This document shows positions 1,184-14,565 of a DNA stretch of 28,342 nucleotides, in pieces. Numbering within the stretch: position 1 is the first letter of the stretch; every line of letters begins with the position of its first letter. The position numbers and the translations under genes are program-made. This DNA comes from a virus: the IMG/VR virus record IMGVR_UViG_3300026478_000706, positions 1-28,342 of that record; one strand, written 5' to 3'. Under the pieces are notes generated by a model that worked only from the letters and a program-made list of their open reading frames with translations, was not told where the DNA came from and searched no databases.

Positions 1184-2458
1184 ATGTCTAATTCATCAGT
1201 TTCAGTATCTCAAAACTTTTCTCAAATAATGTTTGCTAATCAAAGTCAAACATTCGCAGGAATTAAAACCTTTGATGAAGTTCTAATTAACAACGCAATG
1301 CCAGCCCTAACTGGTACCCAAGATGTAAACCAGTGGCTAAAATCTTTAAGACAGCTACACATTAAAAACGCAAACACCTATACCAGAGTAGTACAGTATG
1401 CACATGGCGTGACAGCGGTTGATTATGCCTACACTGGCGGCGTCTACTCACCCACGCAGAATCGGATTTATTTGGCCCCCGATGGTCAAGCCAACCAAAC
1501 TAACTGGCACTATATTGACTGCAACACCGGTAGCGTAGTGGCTTATGCCCATGGCGTGACAGCTGTTTCAGGAGCCTACACTGGCGGCGTCTACTCACCC
1601 ACGCAGAATCGGATTTATCTGGTACCTAGTGGTCAATCAAACCAGACCAACTGGCACTATATTGACTGCAATACCGGTAGCGTAGTAGCTTATGCACATG
1701 GCGTGACAGCGGTTCTAAGCGCCTACACTGGCGGCGTCTACTCACCCACGCAGAATCGGATTTATTTGGTTCCATATAGTCAAGCCAACCAGACCAACTG
1801 GCACTATATTGACTGTGCCACCGGTAGCGTAGTGGCTTATGCCCATGGCGTGACAGCTGTTTCAGGAGCCTACACTGGCGGCGTCTACTCACCCACGCAG
1901 AATCGGATTTATTTGGTTCCATATAACCAATCAAACCAAACTAACTGGCATTACATTGACTGTAATACCGGTAGCGTAGTGGCTTATGCGAATGGCGTGA
2001 CGGGAGGTCTTCATTGGGGCGGCGTCTACTCACCCACGCAGAATCGGATTTATTTTATTACAGCGGGTAATCAAACTAACTGGTACTATATTGACTGCAA
2101 CACCGGCAACGTGGTGGCTTATGCGCACGGTGTAACGTCGGTTTTTCTATTTTATTTGGGCGGCGTCTACTCACCCACCCAAAATCGGATTTATTTGGTT
2201 CCATATAATCAATCTACTGTTGCCAACTGGCATTACATTGACTGCAACACCGGCAACGTGGTGGCTTATGCACATGGGGTGACCGCAGTTGCAGGAGCAT
2301 ACAGGGGCGGCGTCTACTCGCCCACGCAAAACAGGATTTATTTTGTTCCATATCGTCAGGGTAACCAAACCAACTGGCACTATATACAATTTGCTGGAGA
2401 TAATTCTGGCATTATTCCGTATATGTTTGGATCAACTATATTAAGTTCTACACTTTAA
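1184..2458 (+). CDS. Seven-repeat beta-propeller fibre protein, copy 1
   Basis: ATG at 1184 has AAGGG at 1173-1177 upstream. Residues 1-65 form a fibre-like head (SQTFAGIKTFDEVLINNAMP, then a TGTQDVNQWLKSLRQLHI segment). Residues about 70-400 hold seven copies of a repeat with the core GGVYSPTQNRIY, a variable P-x-x-Q loop, NQTNWHYIDCNTGSVVAY and AHGVTAV. Most units are 49 residues (147 bp); unit boundaries around repeats 5 and 6 are 141 bp. The VYSPTQNRIY...IDCNTGSVV pattern resembles YVTN/Kelch-type blades, and seven units suit a closed propeller. The protein ends with IIPYMFGSTILSSTL, also present in the two following paralogues. Likely role: distal tail fibre or receptor-binding adhesin. 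The fold and function are inference; the repeat count and periodicity are seen. Confidence 0.75.
   Translation: MSNSSVSVSQNFSQIMFANQSQTFAGIKTFDEVLINNAMPALTGTQDVNQWLKSLRQLHIKNANTYTRVVQYAHGVTAVDYAYTGGVYSPTQNRIYLAPDGQANQTNWHYIDCNTGSVVAYAHGVTAVSGAYTGGVYSPTQNRIYLVPSGQSNQTNWHYIDCNTGSVVAYAHGVTAVLSAYTGGVYSPTQNRIYLVPYSQANQTNWHYIDCATGSVVAYAHGVTAVSGAYTGGVYSPTQNRIYLVPYNQSNQTNWHYIDCNTGSVVAYANGVTGGLHWGGVYSPTQNRIYFITAGNQTNWYYIDCNTGNVVAYAHGVTSVFLFYLGGVYSPTQNRIYLVPYNQSTVANWHYIDCNTGNVVAYAHGVTAVAGAYRGGVYSPTQNRIYFVPYRQGNQTNWHYIQFAGDNSGIIPYMFGSTILSSTL
1391..2386 (+). repeat. Seven tandem 141-147 bp repeats in fibre copy 1
   Basis: Successive GGCGGCGTCTAC cores begin at 1436, 1583, 1730, 1877, 2018, 2159 and 2306, giving spacings of 147, 147, 147, 141, 141 and 147 bp. 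Most codons are identical between units, including third positions. Differences cluster in the codons after GTNACAGCNGTT and in the loop after the next proline. Confidence 0.95.
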
Positions 2459-2475
2459 ACTTATTAAGGTTTTAT

Positions 2476-3783
2476 ATGAGTAGCTCATCTGTAACATTTC
2501 AAAATAAATATATTGTTCCTGCTTCCCCTACCCAAGATGGTGCAATAAGCACTTCTGCTCAAACATTCACAGGAATTAAAACCTTTGATGAAGTTCTAAT
2601 TAACAACGCAATGCCAGCCCTAACTGGTACCCAAGATGTAAACCAGTGGCTGAAGTCATTGAAACAACTACATATTAAAAATACAAACACTTACACCAGA
2701 ACAGTACAGTTTGCACATGGCGTAACGGCAGTTCAATATGCCTACATTGGAGGCGTCTACTCGCCCACGCAGAATCGGATTTATCTGGTACCTAGTGGTC
2801 AATCAAACCAGACCAACTGGCACTATATTGACTGCAATACCGGTAGCGTAGTAGCTTATGCGGCCGCCCTGAATACGATTGCGTATAGCTACATTGGCGG
2901 CGTTTACTCACCCACGCAGAATCGGATTTATTTTGTTCCAGACAACCAAACCACCTCAGGCGTTTGGCACTATATTGACTGTAATACCGGTAGCGCAGCG
3001 GGTTATGCACATGGGGTGACCGCAGTTGCAGGAGCATACAGGGGCGGCGTCTACTCGCCCACGCAAAACAGGATTTATTTTGTTCCATATCGTCAGGGTA
3101 ACCAAACCAACTGGCACTATATTGACTGCAATACTGGTAGCGTAGTGGCTTATGCACATGGCGCAACGGCGGTTGATTATGCCTACGCCGGCGGCGTCTA
3201 CTCACCCACGCAAAACAGGATTTATTTTGTTCCTAGTGGCCAAACCAACCAAACTAACTGGCACTATATCGATTGTTCTACCGGTAGCGTAGTGGCTTAT
3301 GCCCATGGCGTGACAGCACTACTGTATGCCTACGCCGCCGGCGTCTACTCGCCCACGCAGAATAGGATTTATTTTGTTCCAAATCGTCAGGGTAACCAAA
3401 CCAACTGGCACTATATTGACTGCAATACTGGTAGCGTAGTGGCTTATGCACATGGTGTAATAGCAGTTGAGTACGCCTACTTTGGCAGCGTCTACTCACC
3501 TACGCAAAACAGGATTTATTTAATTCCATATGGCCAAGGCAATCAAGCCAACTGGCATTACATTGACTGCAACACCGGCAGCGTAGTGGCTTATGCCCAT
3601 GGTGTAACAGCAGCTGCAAATACTTATTGGGGAGGCGTCTACTCACCCACGCAAAATAGAATTTATCCTATTCCATACAGTCAATCAAACCAAACCAACT
3701 GGCATTATTTACAACCTACCTGCGACGCCTCTGGTGTTATTCCGTATATGTTTGGGTCAAGTATCTTAAGTTCTACACTTTAA
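2476..3783 (+). CDS. Seven-repeat beta-propeller fibre protein, copy 2
   Basis: This is a paralogue of the preceding gene, starting at ATG 2476 after AAGG at 2466-2469, with 17 bases between the genes. The head is longer and contains SPTQDGAISTSAQTFTGIKT, a phrase type common in phage fibres. It then shares 82 identical bases with copy 1 (2570-2651 versus 1257-1338). Seven repeats follow, each with the GGVYSPTQNRIY core, though repeat 5 has AGVYSP and repeat 6 GSVYSP. Variable residues differ from repeat to repeat, while flanking codons are mostly identical. Repeat 3 is base-for-base the same as repeat 7 of copy 1 over 120 bp. The C-terminus again reads IPYMFGSSILSSTL. A receptor-binding propeller is the likely role, by inference from repeat type and context. 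Confidence 0.75.
   Translation: MSSSSVTFQNKYIVPASPTQDGAISTSAQTFTGIKTFDEVLINNAMPALTGTQDVNQWLKSLKQLHIKNTNTYTRTVQFAHGVTAVQYAYIGGVYSPTQNRIYLVPSGQSNQTNWHYIDCNTGSVVAYAAALNTIAYSYIGGVYSPTQNRIYFVPDNQTTSGVWHYIDCNTGSAAGYAHGVTAVAGAYRGGVYSPTQNRIYFVPYRQGNQTNWHYIDCNTGSVVAYAHGATAVDYAYAGGVYSPTQNRIYFVPSGQTNQTNWHYIDCSTGSVVAYAHGVTALLYAYAAGVYSPTQNRIYFVPNRQGNQTNWHYIDCNTGSVVAYAHGVIAVEYAYFGSVYSPTQNRIYLIPYGQGNQANWHYIDCNTGSVVAYAHGVTAAANTYWGGVYSPTQNRIYPIPYSQSNQTNWHYLQPTCDASGVIPYMFGSSILSSTL
2704..3710 (+). repeat. Seven tandem ~147 bp repeats in fibre copy 2
   Basis: Seven units of the same type as in copy 1 lie in this span, recognised by the repeated GTCTACTCRCCCACGCA core. Unit 3 (3003-3122) is identical to unit 7 of copy 1. 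The 5' half of unit 2 uses a different sequence (GCGGCCGCCCTG) where others have the AHG codons, a sign of local replacement. Confidence 0.93.
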
Positions 3784-3800
3784 ATTTATTAAGGTTTTAT

Positions 3801-5117
3801 ATGAGTAGCTCATCTGTAACATTACCAACAAGTGTCTGCGTGCCCTTGGCATCCTCTACCCAAGATGGTGTAGTTAGCACTACTGTTCAAGCGTTTTCAG
3901 GAACTAAGACCTTTGATGGCGGATATTTAATCAACAACGCAATGCCCGCCCTAACCGGTACCCAAGACGTAAACCAGTGGCTGAAGTCACTGAAACAGCT
4001 ACATATTAAAAATACAAATACCTACACCGGAGCAGTACAATTTGCACATGGCGTGACGGCGGTTTCGGGTGCCTACTTTGGCGGCGTCTATTCACCCACG
4101 CAGAACAGAATTTATTTAGTTCCAAACCAACAAGCCACCTCAGCTAATTGGCACTATATTGATTGCAACACCGGTAGCGTAGTAGCTTATGCACATGGTG
4201 TGACGGCGGTTTCAGGAGCATACAGAGGCGGCGTCTACTCGCCCACGCAAAATAGGATTTATTTTGTTCCATATGGTCAGGGTAACCAAACCAACTGGCA
4301 TTACATTGACTGCAATACCGGTAGCGTAGTAGCTTATGCACACGGTGTGACGGCGGTTGCAAGCGCTTACACTGGCGGCGTCTACTCACCCACCCAGAAC
4401 AGGATTTATTTAGTTCCTGACAGCCAAGCCAACCAAACCAACTGGCATTACATTGACTGCAATACCGGTAGCGTAGTTGCTTACGCACACGGTGTGACCG
4501 CAGTTATAAGTGCTTATTGGTGCGGTGTATACTCGCCTACGCAGAACAGGATTTATTTTGCTCCCAATAGTCAAGCTAACCAAACCAACTGGCACTATAT
4601 TGATTGCGCTACCGGTAGCGTAGTTGCTTACGCACATGGAGTAACGGCAGTTTCGGCTGCCTACTTTGGCGGCGTCTACTCGCCCACGCAAAACAGGATT
4701 TATTTTGCTCCCAATAGTCAAGCCAACCAAACTAACTGGCACTATATTGACTGCAACACCGGTAGCGTAGTAGCTTATGCACATGGCGTGACAGCTGTTT
4801 CAGGAGCCTACTATGGTGGCGTCTATCTGTCTACACAGAATAGAATTTATTTGGTTCCAAGTTTTCAAGCTAATCAGACCAACTGGCATTACATTGACTG
4901 CAATACCGGTAGCGTGGTAGCTTATACCAACGGCGTGACAACGACTATAAATAGTTGTTATGCCGGCGGTGTTTATTCTCCTATGCAGAATAGGATTTAT
5001 TTTGCTCCTAATACACAAGCCAACCAAACCAACTGGCACTATATGCAACCTATGAGCGATAGTACCGGCATTAACCCACACATGTTTGGTTCTACTATCT
5101 TAAGTTCTACATTTTAG
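3801..5117 (+). CDS. Seven-repeat beta-propeller fibre protein, copy 3
   Basis: The third tandem paralogue starts at ATG 3801. Its leader and first codons (about 3787-3823) are nearly identical to those of copy 2, including AAGG 10 bases upstream. The head contains SSTQDGVVSTTVQAFSGTKT and TFDGGYLINNAMP; the extra GG makes this module slightly different from copies 1 and 2. Seven repeats follow. Repeat 6 has GGVYLSTQ instead of GGVYSPTQ, and repeat 7 has a longer variable loop and SPMQ. The end is NPHMFGSTILSSTF. It closes the + strand fibre block and converges with the opposite-strand gene only two bases past its TAG, leaving no room for a hairpin terminator. Function as an alternative adhesin or hetero-oligomer partner is inference. 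Confidence 0.75.
   Translation: MSSSSVTLPTSVCVPLASSTQDGVVSTTVQAFSGTKTFDGGYLINNAMPALTGTQDVNQWLKSLKQLHIKNTNTYTGAVQFAHGVTAVSGAYFGGVYSPTQNRIYLVPNQQATSANWHYIDCNTGSVVAYAHGVTAVSGAYRGGVYSPTQNRIYFVPYGQGNQTNWHYIDCNTGSVVAYAHGVTAVASAYTGGVYSPTQNRIYLVPDSQANQTNWHYIDCNTGSVVAYAHGVTAVISAYWCGVYSPTQNRIYFAPNSQANQTNWHYIDCATGSVVAYAHGVTAVSAAYFGGVYSPTQNRIYFAPNSQANQTNWHYIDCNTGSVVAYAHGVTAVSGAYYGGVYLSTQNRIYLVPSFQANQTNWHYIDCNTGSVVAYTNGVTTTINSCYAGGVYSPMQNRIYFAPNTQANQTNWHYMQPMSDSTGINPHMFGSTILSSTF
4035..5045 (+). repeat. Seven tandem ~147 bp repeats in fibre copy 3
   Basis: Seven units of the same family lie here. Synonymous differences are more common than in copies 1 and 2, especially in the last two units, where the core becomes GTCTATCTGTCTACAC or GTTTATTCTCCTATGC. 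This suggests that this copy, or its end, is homogenised less often. Confidence 0.92.
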
Positions 5118-9988: not shown

Positions 9989-11380
9989 ATGAAATCAATT
10001 GCGCACATCTTTAATGACATTATCCGTATCGATCATATTGATATGGATATCGAATCGGAATTACGAAACCAGCTTTCGTATGTCGATAAGTCAAAGCAAT
10101 ATCAGTTAAAAAGAATGCGTCGAAATCCGTTTGCTGCGTCGCCTGCGCTTCTGGCTCAATTAGAAAGCGAATCGCAGGGAACTCTTCTTAAGAAGGACAA
10201 TAATTCACTCATAGTTCCGTCTGGATTTGCTTCGTTGGTGCAATCTTTAATACCAAATACAATAGACAACCGTAAAGAAACAGGGGACATAATCCCACTT
10301 CCTTGGGCCAACGCTAATCAAGCTATACAGCTTAGACCATATCAAGAAGAAGCTGTTGACAAGGCTATGACAAGCTGGCGAGGCATTATAAATCTTGCGA
10401 CTGGACTAGGGAAGTCTAAAACCGCAATAATGTTGATTAAAAAGCTAAAGCGTAAAACTTTAGTAGTTTGCCCAAGTAAATCAATTGCTTATCAGTTCTA
10501 TAATGAACTTGCCGAATGCTTCGGCAAAACTAAAGTTGGCTTTATAGGCGATGGGAAGTATAAACCGTCTGCAGTAACCGTAGGCATAGCCGCCTCAGTA
10601 TCAAACCGTATAGATGACATCAAAAATCTCGGTCTTGGTGTCATTATCTTCGACGAGACCCACCACACACCCGCAAACACTTTCTACGCTATTGCCGAAG
10701 GACTAGGAGCCGTGGGCCGGATTTACGGACTCACGGCTACCGCTTTTAGATCAGACGGAAAAGATGTATTTATTCACGCGGCTTGCGGTGATATTCTGGT
10801 TGAACGAGACGTATCCTGGGGAGTAGCAAATGGCTGGCTTTCTCAACCTTATTTTATAGTAAGAGCAATAAATACAACTGGTTACGATTACAAAGACGAT
10901 AAATTAAAAGCTTATAAAGCGCACGTCTTAAATTGTAAAGAGATGAACGAACGGATAATTGCGGATGCAAGAGCGTTCATTAGTGCAAACAAGAATACTC
11001 TTATATTGGTCGATCAAATCGAGCACGGAGACATGATATCATCAGCTTTGGGCATTTCCTTCGCGAATGGCCGCGATAAGGGCTCAGAGAAGTTCATCGA
11101 TGAATTTAACCGCGGGAAAATACGTGGACTCGTCGCGACTGACGGCCTTGTCGGTGAGGGAGTCGACACCAGAAGCGTTGAGGTTCTGCTTCTTGCTAAC
11201 TTTACGGCGTCTAAGTCTGCTGTCCTACAAGCAGTGGGAAGAGGACTTAGGAAAACTCCAGAAAAGTCAACCTGCATAATATTAGACTATATCCCAACTG
11301 CATCAACGATGCTGACGCGTCACGCAAAGCAGCGAATCTCTTACTATAAAGAGATTACGCACAACGTGAAAGTACAATAA
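9989..11380 (+). CDS. SF2 DNA helicase, UvsW/XPB/RadD-like
   Basis: This ATP-dependent DNA translocase probably remodels forks and recombination intermediates. The first 110 residues are a specific N-terminal region without known motifs. The helicase core has LRPYQEEAV (Q-like motif, 115-123), ATGLGKSKTA (motif I, 137-146), VVCPSKSIAYQF (Ia), DETHH (motif II, 222-226), GLTATAFRSDG (motif III, 247-257), a GEGVDTR motif V and QAVGRGLRKT (motif VI). T4 UvsW is close in size (about 500 residues), and the neighbours include other T4-type recombination proteins. A DETHH box is usual for the XPB/RadD/UvsW branch. ATG 9989 has no visible Shine-Dalgarno sequence, unlike most genes here, so its message may be leaderless or use another start such as ATG 10043. 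Confidence 0.87.
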   Translation: MKSIAHIFNDIIRIDHIDMDIESELRNQLSYVDKSKQYQLKRMRRNPFAASPALLAQLESESQGTLLKKDNNSLIVPSGFASLVQSLIPNTIDNRKETGDIIPLPWANANQAIQLRPYQEEAVDKAMTSWRGIINLATGLGKSKTAIMLIKKLKRKTLVVCPSKSIAYQFYNELAECFGKTKVGFIGDGKYKPSAVTVGIAASVSNRIDDIKNLGLGVIIFDETHHTPANTFYAIAEGLGAVGRIYGLTATAFRSDGKDVFIHAACGDILVERDVSWGVANGWLSQPYFIVRAINTTGYDYKDDKLKAYKAHVLNCKEMNERIIADARAFISANKNTLILVDQIEHGDMISSALGISFANGRDKGSEKFIDEFNRGKIRGLVATDGLVGEGVDTRSVEVLLLANFTASKSAVLQAVGRGLRKTPEKSTCIILDYIPTASTMLTRHAKQRISYYKEITHNVKVQ

Positions 11381-11383
11381 TAC

Positions 11384-11596
11384 GGCCTTTTAGGCAGGAG
11401 CGTGGGCATCTCCGTTCCTCGAACAAAGTGTTTGTAGGTGTGTCCTGACTCGTTAGGACGGGTGTGGTTCAAGAGAAATAATGCCATGTTTTCTCTTGGT
11501 TTCGAAAGAAATCTATCTGCACAAGCGAGTCTTTTTATGGCAGAAGTGGCATTCTAGTCATAGAAGCAACCTAGGCATGTTGAGAAAAGGCCTTTT
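11384..11596 (+). ncRNA. Candidate structured RNA between the helicase and dut genes
   Basis: This 234-base non-coding gap (11381-11614) is the longest in the window and is rich in pairing. An 8-bp closing helix joins GGCCTTTT (11384-11391) to AAAAGGCC (11585-11592). Inside are AGGAGCG/CGTTCCT (11396-11402/11413-11419, one G-U pair), ACAAA/TTTGT (11423-11427/11431-11435), GTCCTGA/TTAGGAC (11442-11448/11453-11459, loop CTCG), CAAGAGAAA/TTTCTCTTG (11470-11478/11490-11498, 11-base loop), TTCTA/TAGAA (11552-11556/11561-11565) and CAAC/GTTG (11567-11570/11579-11582). The loop AATGCCA (11480-11486) is complementary to TGGCATT (11547-11553), a possible pseudoknot. No tRNA fold, rRNA or known riboswitch was recognised. 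It may be a processed RNA or a cis leader of dut. Confidence 0.55.
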
Positions 11597-11614
11597 AATT
11601 ATTAAGGAGTAGCT

Positions 11615-12106
11615 ATGAGCAAGATCGTTAAGGTTAATTTAGTTGAAGGTGGACAACTGCCGGTTAAGGCGCACAGATCTGACGCCGGATTTGATTTGTT
11701 TGCGGCATCTGACTTTTCAGTGCTTCCCGGACAGGTTGTCAAGCATGCCGTAAACGTTAAGATCCAGCTGCCGGAATCTACATACGCAGAAATTACTTCT
11801 AAATCTGGAAATGGATCTAAGGGTCTTTTGGTTTATGCAGGGATCATTGACGAAGGATACAGAGGCGTTATCCATGTCGTTATGACCAATTTAAACCACA
11901 CTCCCCACACTACTTGGGTGGATGGTTTTCAAAGAACGATACTTTTCGCTGGTGAAACGTTGCATTTCAAGAAGGGGCAAAAAATCGCGCAGATGATCCT
12001 GCACCCTTATTCAAGCGACTATACACTTGAGAAAGTCGATCAACTAGATGAAAATACGTCTCGCGGTATGGGTGGATTCGGTAGCACAGGCAATTCTTTA
12101 GTATAA
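11615..12106 (+). CDS. dut: dUTP pyrophosphatase (dUTPase)
   Basis: The enzyme converts dUTP to dUMP and pyrophosphate, keeping uracil out of phage DNA and supplying dTTP synthesis; it works as a trimer. All five family motifs are present in 163 residues: HRSDAGFDLFA (20-30), TSKSGNGSKG (61-70, where many relatives have an R-S-G/S-x-x-x-x-x-G form), GIIDEGYRG (76-84), FKKGQKIAQMILHP (118-131) and RGMGGFGSTG (150-159). Motif 3 holds the catalytic Asp and motif 5 the glycine-rich lid. A segment between motifs 3 and 4 (about 91-117) is longer than usual. ATG 11615 has AAGGAG (11604-11609). It follows the structured RNA and precedes a methyltransferase-fold gene by 22 bases. Confidence 0.93.
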   Translation: MSKIVKVNLVEGGQLPVKAHRSDAGFDLFAASDFSVLPGQVVKHAVNVKIQLPESTYAEITSKSGNGSKGLLVYAGIIDEGYRGVIHVVMTNLNHTPHTTWVDGFQRTILFAGETLHFKKGQKIAQMILHPYSSDYTLEKVDQLDENTSRGMGGFGSTGNSLV

Positions 12107-12836: not shown

Positions 12837-12855
12837 TTATTCTTTGGAGATGCAG

Positions 12856-14565
12856 ATGCTTTACGTAAAGTCAAAATCTAAAGATATGGTCGATGATCCC
12901 GTACAGATCGACGATATCGTTAAAACCACCCTCAGCCGTATGGCAAATATTGCTTCTAAAACACTTGGACCTGGCGGGCGTCCAGTTCTTATTGAGCGCG
13001 AAGGTCTTCCGCCTTTGGTTACAAAAGACGGTATCACGGTTATCAAATCATTAGGTATGCCTAATGCAGCAGCAAATACAGTTCTGGATACTTGCAAAGA
13101 GATATCGCTCAACACCGCGCGGGACGCAGGTGACGGTACGACTACTGCAATCGTTTTGGCGGATGCGATTGTTAGAGCAGGATCGGTTTTCATGATGCGC
13201 AATAAGCGCTACAATCCTCAGCGCTTTGTTAATGAGCTTCGTCAATGCTATGAAAAGGTGATCAAACCTTACCTTAATGATGTGGCAATTAAAGTTAAAT
13301 CTGATGACGATCTCAAACGCGTTGCTTTAATTTCTGCGAACGGTGATCAAGACGTCGCAGAAGTTGTGGTAAAGGCCTTTATGGCTGCAGGCGAAGACGG
13401 GCACATCCTGATTCAAGAAGACCAAGGCGGCGGAATGCGCGTTGAAACCGTAGATGGTTTCATCGTTACTTCTGGTCTAAAAGATCTTGGATCAATTGGT
13501 TCTGTATTCATCAATGATCGCGCCAACCAGCAAGTCCGCATGGACGAGGGCCTGGTGGTTCTATTTGATGGAACGTTAAACGACCTCGTTCTTCCTGCTG
13601 CTATTCAATCTGCATGCGAAGGTGACGCAGATTTATTTGGCAAACCAATCATTATCATGGCTCATGGTTTTGCAGATCCAGTTATTGAAAAGTGCCTTAA
13701 GACATCTAAAAGCGGCGTTACCGTACTCCCCGTGAAAGTTCCAAAATCAACACTCGCAAATTCTAGAACTATGTTTCTTCAGGACATGGCGGCGTACACA
13801 TCTGCAACAATTGTTGATCCAGCTACTGCTGCTTCGTTTAATGCTGAACATTTTGGTCACTTTAGCGCAGTAAAGGTAAATACCTACGAAGCATTTGTTC
13901 AATGTGAATCAGATAGCGAGCTAATTGATGAGCGCGTCTCTGAACTTAAGGCAATCATGGCCTCTGCTCACTCCGAGCACGATCGTGCGCATCTAAGAGC
14001 TGCAATTGCAAAACTTACTGGCGGAATTTCTACAGTATGGGTTGGCGGCATGACCGATGCTGAGGTTAGAGAACGTAGAGATAGAGTTCAAGACGCCGTA
14101 GAAGCCGTGCGTTCTGCTGTAGCTGAAGGTATTGTTGCAGGTGGTTGCGCTACTCATTTGGCTCTTGCAAAGAAGATCCGCGATGCTGATTCCTTCTATG
14201 CTTCACCTGCATGGTCTATTCTTGCCGAAGCTCTTGAGCACCCATTTAAGGTGCTTTTGGCAAATTGCGGTGAATTTGATCGACATGCAGAACTTTATTC
14301 CGCTATCATTGAAAGTTCCAACAATTATATTCCTAAGGTTGTCTTTGACGCAAATCAGCATGAAGTTGTAGATCCATTTAAATCTGGTATTGTTGAACCC
14401 GCAAAGGTTCATCGTGTAGCTATTGGCAATGCACTATCAGTTGCATCATTGATGGTGACCCTTGGCGGCATCGTTGTCGCTCCTCGTGACTATAATCTAG
14501 AAACGCAAATGGAATTAAGTAAAGCAGCCTTAAAAGATATGATGAACGAGGCGGGGCAAGAATGA
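12856..14565 (+). CDS. groL: GroEL-type chaperonin (phage-encoded)
   Basis: This is a 569-residue HSP60 protein-folding chaperonin. Signatures: SKTLGPGGRPVLIE (34-47), VTKDGITV (55-62, Asp as E. coli D52), ARDAGDGTTTAIVLA (88-102, Asp as D87) and the C-terminal equatorial motif RDRVQDAVEAVRSAVAEGIV, whose Asp matches D398 of the ATPase site. So ATP binding and hydrolysis should be intact. The apical region (about 190-380) is more diverged, and the usual C-terminal Gly-Gly-Met tail is missing. No GroES-sized gene is in the window; phage EL also encodes a GroEL that works without co-chaperonin (established knowledge). I chose ATG 12856 because GGAG stands six bases before it; the same frame opens at TTG 12844 and ATG 12850. 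It overlaps the next gene by ATGA. Confidence 0.92.
   Translation: MLYVKSKSKDMVDDPVQIDDIVKTTLSRMANIASKTLGPGGRPVLIEREGLPPLVTKDGITVIKSLGMPNAAANTVLDTCKEISLNTARDAGDGTTTAIVLADAIVRAGSVFMMRNKRYNPQRFVNELRQCYEKVIKPYLNDVAIKVKSDDDLKRVALISANGDQDVAEVVVKAFMAAGEDGHILIQEDQGGGMRVETVDGFIVTSGLKDLGSIGSVFINDRANQQVRMDEGLVVLFDGTLNDLVLPAAIQSACEGDADLFGKPIIIMAHGFADPVIEKCLKTSKSGVTVLPVKVPKSTLANSRTMFLQDMAAYTSATIVDPATAASFNAEHFGHFSAVKVNTYEAFVQCESDSELIDERVSELKAIMASAHSEHDRAHLRAAIAKLTGGISTVWVGGMTDAEVRERRDRVQDAVEAVRSAVAEGIVAGGCATHLALAKKIRDADSFYASPAWSILAEALEHPFKVLLANCGEFDRHAELYSAIIESSNNYIPKVVFDANQHEVVDPFKSGIVEPAKVHRVAIGNALSVASLMVTLGGIVVAPRDYNLETQMELSKAALKDMMNEAGQE

Follow-up and report, generated by a model that had tools for sequence, protein, structure and literature searches.

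What lies between a helicase gene and dut in a viral genome, and does it encode a genuine folded RNA? The question arises from a virus record of 28,342 bases, which was analysed over its whole length and is referred to here as the window. The gene of a DEAD/ResIII-type helicase (9989–11380, plus strand; Pfam PF04851) is followed there by the dUTPase gene dut (11615–12106, plus strand; Pfam PF00692, E 4e-26), whose ribosome binding site AAGGAG lies at 11604–11609 on the same strand. The original prediction had placed in the gap a structured RNA of no recognised class, closed by an 8-bp helix of GGCCTTTT (11384–11391) with AAAAGGCC (11585–11592), containing a pairing of a loop (AATGCCA, 11480–11486) with a downstream segment (TGGCATT, 11547–11553), and able to adopt two alternative states as in leaders that sense a ligand. 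All four strings lie where they were described, and both the 8-bp helix and several hairpins are part of the minimum-energy fold of 11381–11614, but the energy of this fold, -71.5 kcal/mol, is only mildly unusual (z -2.0, 9 of 200 shuffles being equally good).

The Helicase–dut Gap in Related Viruses

A search with dut led to 14 close viral loci, 12 of which carry an RNA of similar size between the helicase and dut genes. The carriers fall into four lineages (the window with L001 and L007; L002–L006; L010 and L011; L012–L014), while L008 and L009, which form one clade, lack the element and have a gap of just 94 nt; a wider search with the dut alignment found no intermediate relatives. Judged from folding models and from the comparison of these sequences, the gap encodes a genuine folded RNA of about 200 nt that lies between the helicase stop and the dut ribosome site (11395–11594, plus strand; conserved in L001–L007 and L010–L014), with an anatomy unlike the one first proposed. 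The 5′ half of the 8-bp helix is reduced to 7 bp in L007 and to 4 bp in L002, and nothing of it is left in L010 and L012, so that a structured RNA is present in the gap but is not closed by a conserved GGCCTTTT/AAAAGGCC helix. AAAAGGCC is nonetheless invariant, because it is part of another structure, a 28-nt pseudoknot at the 3′ end. Compensatory changes among the related phages are likewise found for the loop pairing but not for the closing helix.

Conservation of a 43-codon frame had been named as an observation that would speak against an RNA. This frame is not conserved, and since it is broken in L007, by a one-base deletion and two stops, the region is considered non-coding and a protein-coding use of the gap was rejected. 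The absence of a known RNA class was borne out as well: Rfam 15 gave no match at the gathering threshold anywhere in the window, and relaxed scans of the relatives and of the pseudoknot loci gave none at the element, the best score being that of the Guanidine-I riboswitch with 13.2 bits (E 6.6) against a gathering cut-off of 63.

Elsewhere in the window, a phage chaperonin of the Cpn60/GroEL family (12844–14565; PF00118) with a TTG start is encoded two genes after dut, and three tandem paralogous proteins of 424–438 aa with near-identical repeats (WHYIDCNTGSVVAYAHGVTAV...) are encoded at 1184–5117, which are probably tail-tip or adhesin proteins that diversify by repeat exchange.

The 5′ Domain

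Upstream of the 3′ pseudoknot, about 170 nt that are particular to this phage group are predicted to fold into several hairpins, together with a pseudoknot formed by a loop and with a kissing loop. The first hairpin, H1 (11396–11419, plus strand), pairs AGGAGCG (11396–11402) with CGTTCCT (11413–11419) around a 10-nt loop and is 100% paired in 9 relatives, where one of its pairs has a double change and four have single changes. The H1 loop (GCATCT, 11406–11411) can in turn pair with AGGTGT (11436–11441) to form the 5′ pseudoknot PKa (11406–11441, plus strand), which is 96% paired and which RNAalifold also predicted, independently, from a plain MAFFT alignment made without structure. Three of its six pairs are compensatory (C-G/G-U/U-G; A-U/U-A; U-A/G-U), and it is on this covariation in the aligned sequences that the assignment of PKa is based, the count of matches between the loop and its partner being not significant in any single lineage alone.

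The minimum-energy fold further contains a long-range helix, H2 (11447–11531, plus strand), of GACTCGTT (11447–11454) with AGCGAGTC (11524–11531), which encloses two hairpins. Both H2 and the hairpin H3 have counterparts of different sequence in each lineage; those of H2, GACCUGU/ACAGGUC in L002 and GCCGGUC/GACCGGU in L010 as well as one in L012, were read by eye with the aid of individual folds, and the minimum-energy folds of L004, L006 and L012 differ in part. Hairpin a (11470–11498, plus strand) carries TGCCA (11482–11486) in its loop and H3 (11533–11565, plus strand) carries TGGCA (11547–11551), and these form the two sides of the predicted kissing loop, while hairpin b (11498–11513, plus strand; GGTTTC-GAAA-GAAATC) resembles a GAAA-capped hairpin in L012.

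The loop-to-downstream pairing of the original prediction is thus retained as a kissing loop, which covaries in four lineages. The cores are UGCCA/UGGCA in the window, GUCAC/GUGAC in L002, UAGCUG/CAGCUA in L010 and UCUGC/GCAGA in L012, and a loop of one lineage does not match the loops of another. The fractions of shuffled loops that reach the same lengths are 0.0065 (window), 0.0097 (L002), 0.0016 (L010, taken by hand with two predicted hairpin pairs opened) and 0.011 (L012), and the product without L010 is about 7e-7. A covariance model of H1 and PKa matches this phage group only, among 98 sources, the next best match scoring 16.8 bits (E 0.02), and the 5′ domain has no match in plasmids.

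The 3′ Pseudoknot

The 3′ end of the RNA (11567–11594, plus strand) is a predicted H-type pseudoknot of 28 nt, which occurs in a single copy in the window. P1 pairs CAAC (11567–11570) with GTTG (11579–11582) and P2 pairs AGGC (11573–11576) with GCCT (11590–11593), the outermost P2 pair being a U-U mismatch in this copy; L1 is C11571, L2 is AT (11577–11578) and the A-rich L3 is AGAAAAG (11583–11589). The invariant motif was first met elsewhere downstream of hsp20 genes in unrelated phages, and a relaxed search revealed that the bases flanking it change in a complementary fashion. When two P1 pairs were left free, they were paired in 58 and 72 of 77 distinct copies, compared with at most 45 and 55 after shuffling. 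Two more patterns set no condition on P1 and fixed P2 as either GGC/GCC or AGC/GCU, which yielded 43 and at least 120 viral stretches, respectively, whereas the mismatch control AGC/GCC, with one A-C pair in P2, yielded 1 match.

Altogether 131 distinct relatives of 28 nt were collected, in which two interleaved stems are seen with compensatory changes in each. Pairing is found in 94.8% of the cells against 77% after shuffling, with 221 double-change cells against 80 and a covariation score of 0.478 against 0.160; none of 500 shuffles reached the observed paired cells, double changes or covariation score, and slid structures collapse. Both searches prescribed the G-C/A-U change at columns 8/26, so that independent support there comes from the mismatch control, whereas the covariation of P1 was unconstrained by the search: its second pair is G-C in 80, C-G in 30, A-U in 11 and other in 7 copies, and its third is A-U in 65, U-A in 52, C-G in 13 and other in 1. 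As far as the alignment tells, both stems are conserved through matching base changes.

The consensus is NNNC-C-UNRGC-AN-GNNN-NUAAAAG-GCYNA with complementary stems, and a second form has AAACU in loop 3. P1 and P2 together amount to only 9 bp, and the single-stranded bases are strongly conserved, namely the C in L1, the A in L2 and AAAAG in L3. H-type pseudoknots as such are already known from phage mRNA, but the present family appears to be new: no description was found in the open-access literature, and one may have been given elsewhere.

Occurrence at Phage Gene Boundaries

The pseudoknot was sought with fixed patterns and in a sample of phage DNA, and relatives were found on hundreds of phage contigs; a structure-aware scan of the sample gave 236 copies versus 6 in reversed sequence. 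Named carriers are phages of Bacillota, Bacteroidota, Actinomycetota, Cyanobacteriota and Pseudomonadota, with copies in unannotated gaps of Lactobacillus mv4, LL-H and CV244, Streptococcus MissE2 and Javan308, Staphylococcus phiIPLA7, Leuconostoc LLC-1, Anoxybacillus A403, Bacillus poppyseed (a divergent copy), Ruegeria DSS3phi2, Rhizobium RHph_TM40, Stenotrophomonas BUCT702, Vibrio 1.238.A, Streptomyces ClubPenguin, Nostoc NMeng1 and crAss-like cr52_1/cr56_1. One subset pattern gave no match in 399 genomes of the class Bacilli and one, non-pairing, in 369 genomes of Gammaproteobacteria, and the matches of an earlier, looser scan of bacterial genomes were discarded as chance, none having the partner of CAAC. 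An element of host genes or prophages was rejected on the ground that the sampled bacterial genomes lack a pairing match to this subset of variants, which leaves room for rarer prophage copies; contigs of the prophage type do carry the pseudoknot.

According to a simple gene caller, 43 copies lie within a called frame and the remainder are intergenic, mostly on the coding strand. The conserved part is confined to the 28 nt of the two stems, without conserved flanks. The distance from the preceding stop codon peaks at 5–7 nt (39 of 164), with three copies at 0–3 nt and a long tail, and the distance to the next start codon is broad, commonly 12–60 nt; in LL-H the pseudoknot itself contains the stop codon of the preceding gene. 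Frameshift-stimulating pseudoknots stand at a similar spacing, and the fold resembles the luteoviral ones, so a recoding signal that drives readthrough or frameshifting at the upstream stop might be suspected. The phase of the spacing is unbiased (25/21/16), without frame preference, and the frames after the stop are short (median extension of 12 codons, frame 0), so that recoding is hardly credible; moreover, 39 of 54 close upstream stops are TAA, and many copies have no stop codon nearby. Very improbable, too, is an unconventional intrinsic terminator composed of P2 and a following U-run, since TTTT is found within 8 nt in just 40 of 232 copies and a terminator scan calls none at the window copy, despite UUUUUU after some copies (L040, CV244 and TMW 1.1393 P1).

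The neighbouring genes are diverse. Downstream proteins belong to 152 PHROG families in total, with head scaffolding proteins (phrog_194, PF06810) in 14 of 104 cases and SSB in 2 of 104, and in several Firmicutes phages the pseudoknot precedes the pair of scaffold and major capsid genes; upstream proteins include Hsp20 (10 of 88), and some copies lie between a gene and a tRNA or directly after a tRNA. Up to six copies were seen in one contig of 12 kb, all on one strand and with differing yet self-complementary stems, and several contigs carry three to six copies each, again on a single strand with different stems.

This diversity bears on the ligand-sensing leader of the original prediction. 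A riboswitch would suit a compact knot with invariant loop bases and a topology like that of small H-type aptamers, as well as the complex 170-nt domain upstream of it in this phage. But neither the closing helix nor the alternative self-fold, AAAAGGCCTTTT, survives in the relatives (the latter is lost in L010 and L012, which have AAAAAGGCCCAA and AAAAGGCCCACC), no alternative pairing with the ribosome site is conserved, and in other phages the conserved pseudoknot adjoins unrelated genes, either before or after it. A ligand switch is less likely because of this gene diversity and the lack of a conserved alternative state, and, with an Rfam score as far below the cut-off as that of Guanidine-I, it is regarded as quite improbable.

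Several other features were observed on the contigs of this collection. In Firmicutes phages, the interval between the pseudoknot and the scaffold gene holds a second conserved leader (L313:2527–2585, L316:2526–2585, L458:2029–2086 and L471:1228–1288), in which a hairpin (CGAG..UCGU..CUCG or similar) is followed by UAAA..AACGU.AGGAG, possibly a second pseudoknot by the ribosome site. ROSE_3-like matches upstream of phage hsp20 (L023:4254–4311 and L040:7350–7403, both on the minus strand; 31 and 23.8 bits, cut-off 43) suggest, at the level of sequence, a phage RNA thermometer. A type II Hammerhead (L257:2202–2271, plus strand) and a Pistol ribozyme (L283:3366–3432, plus strand) exceed the Rfam thresholds on pseudoknot-carrying phage contigs. 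In the crAss-like cr56_1 and cr52_1 (L463:1376–2421 and L317:2530–3463) an unannotated gap of about 1 kb begins with the pseudoknot; the first part of this gap is conserved between both, and a large non-coding RNA is possible. Finally, one copy (L247:5059–5082, minus strand) directly follows a tRNA-like sequence that seemingly ends past the anticodon arm and may be a broken tRNA gene.

Possible Function of the Pseudoknot

We infer that the pseudoknot acts as RNA in cis, and tentatively favour, with somewhat less than even confidence, a boundary or stability element of polycistronic phage mRNA. Its mechanism would be as follows. The pseudoknot would keep its fold even while a ribosome occupies the stop codon ahead of it, the near-absence of copies at 0–3 nt from the stop being read as a need to stay folded during termination. 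Once folded, it could physically obstruct ribonucleases and help to split the message into parts that differ in stability; the following cistron (dut in this phage, scaffold and capsid or a tRNA in others) might then differ in fate from the preceding one. The 170-nt domain ahead of it in this phage may be a further protective or protein-binding module. The covariation, the mismatch control, the stop spacing, the repetition, the intergenic placement and the diversity of downstream genes are consistent with such an element. The flaviviral xrRNA shows that a folded RNA is able to halt RNase J1 in vitro (PMC5760640), and among the mRNAs of T4 the most stable is that of gene 32, which has a pseudoknot in its leader (PMC3014915).

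Other observations argue against a boundary element. Hosts with differing decay enzymes share the pseudoknot (phages of Vibrio, Stenotrophomonas, Bacillus and Streptomyces), which rules out any one nuclease, for instance RNase J, as its target, and this breadth likewise excludes a target restricted to one group; a block specific for RNase J was rejected because copies also occur in phages of hosts that are not known to have RNase J. The 9 bp of P1 and P2 are modest for a nuclease block, and the conserved loop bases would also suit a specific contact with a protein or small molecule. Furthermore, the window copy has U-U as the outermost P2 pair, and the clade of L008 and L009 does without the element.

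The strongest alternatives involve a general RNA-binding protein or RNA polymerase. For the former, the pseudoknot would be a translational operator on which a phage or host protein nucleates to control the next gene, as gp32 does on the leader of gene 32; in T4 and T2 this leader has a functional H-type pseudoknot ahead of the gene (PMC3014915). The common position 12–60 nt before a start codon and the conserved loop bases, which could contact a protein, fit such an operator, but the genes that follow are unrelated to one another (104 proteins with 152 PHROG families) and some copies adjoin tRNAs, while six copies in one phage do not fit autoregulation by a gene product and would call for one general protein; we consider it unlikely. 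The put RNA of HK022 modifies the transcribing polymerase, and the pseudoknot could similarly, as a fold of the nascent RNA, affect pausing or antitermination and keep long phage operons transcribed. The copies are all on the transcribed strand and repeated along gene clusters, polymerase is common to all hosts, and covariation suggests an RNA function. Put sites act near the promoter, whereas the pseudoknots follow many individual genes, and in Streptococcus and Leuconostoc phages some copies stand right behind, rather than ahead of, terminator-like hairpins (by eye), so that a polymerase-directed element is judged unlikely.

ToxI, the antitoxin RNA of a type III system, is a small pseudoknot as well, and a decoy against host defence might mimic such RNAs. 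Phages are reported to evade ToxIN by RNA mimicry (PMC3475682). Beside the window copy there are neither tandem repeats nor a toxin gene, its neighbours being helicase and dut, and a fixed intergenic place in phages of many unrelated hosts does not fit a decoy of one toxin family, which makes this explanation extremely improbable.

Comparison With Known Pseudoknots

The luteovirus frameshift pseudoknots (BWYV, PLRV) are short two-stem folds with a C in loop 1 and an A-rich loop 3, situated about 6 nt from the A-site codon. The phage pseudoknot shares the fold, both loop features and the spacing, but it is non-coding and phage-borne and has neither a slippery site nor a frame bias. Among documented phage examples, the closest is the pseudoknot in the gene 32 leader of T4, T2 and RB69, which is likewise of the H-type and lies in a phage mRNA leader upstream of the ribosome site of a stable mRNA (PMC3014915). 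That pseudoknot belongs to a single gene and the protein which this gene encodes, whereas the family described here occurs at many unrelated gene boundaries; the window copy precedes dut rather than an SSB gene, which is found downstream in just the 2 of 104 cases elsewhere. The conserved loop signature (C; A; AAAAG) belongs to the present family. A copy before gene 32 of S-CRM01, considered as a link to the T4 operator, was dropped as evidence, as its P2 pairs improperly.

With the flavivirus xrRNA, which also stops the bacterial RNase J1 (PMC5760640), the pseudoknot shares the proposed mechanical block to ribonucleases; xrRNA forms a ring-like three-way junction, whereas the phage knot is a simple H-type for which resistance is proposed. 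The HDV-like theta ribozymes of gut phages are also phage RNA pseudoknots, often beside tRNA genes (PMC10879173), but they form a nested double pseudoknot with a catalytic C, whereas the family here is a single two-stem pseudoknot of 28 nt, mostly without an adjoining tRNA and without an Rfam HDV match.

Implications for Phage mRNA Control

Taken as a whole, the observations may describe a small, previously undescribed pseudoknot class of tailed phages from at least five host phyla, which acts at mRNA gene boundaries by one conserved mechanism directed at universal machinery (the ribosome, RNA polymerase or a universal ribonuclease) and is fused here to a 170-nt RNA with a tertiary fold; we hold the chances of this being right and wrong to be evenly balanced. 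The family speaks for a common device by which phages manage their messages. Across unrelated phages, only a handful of conserved cis-acting RNA elements are known, and a recurrent, stop-proximal, covarying knot would bring to light a general level at which phage mRNA is controlled, would aid the annotation of phage intergenic regions and could be a portable part for setting expression ratios within operons. The gene 32 pseudoknot has been called possibly the sole viral pseudoknot in translational autoregulation (PMC3014915), and if any copy of the present family proves regulatory, its breadth would change this picture of an only viral case.
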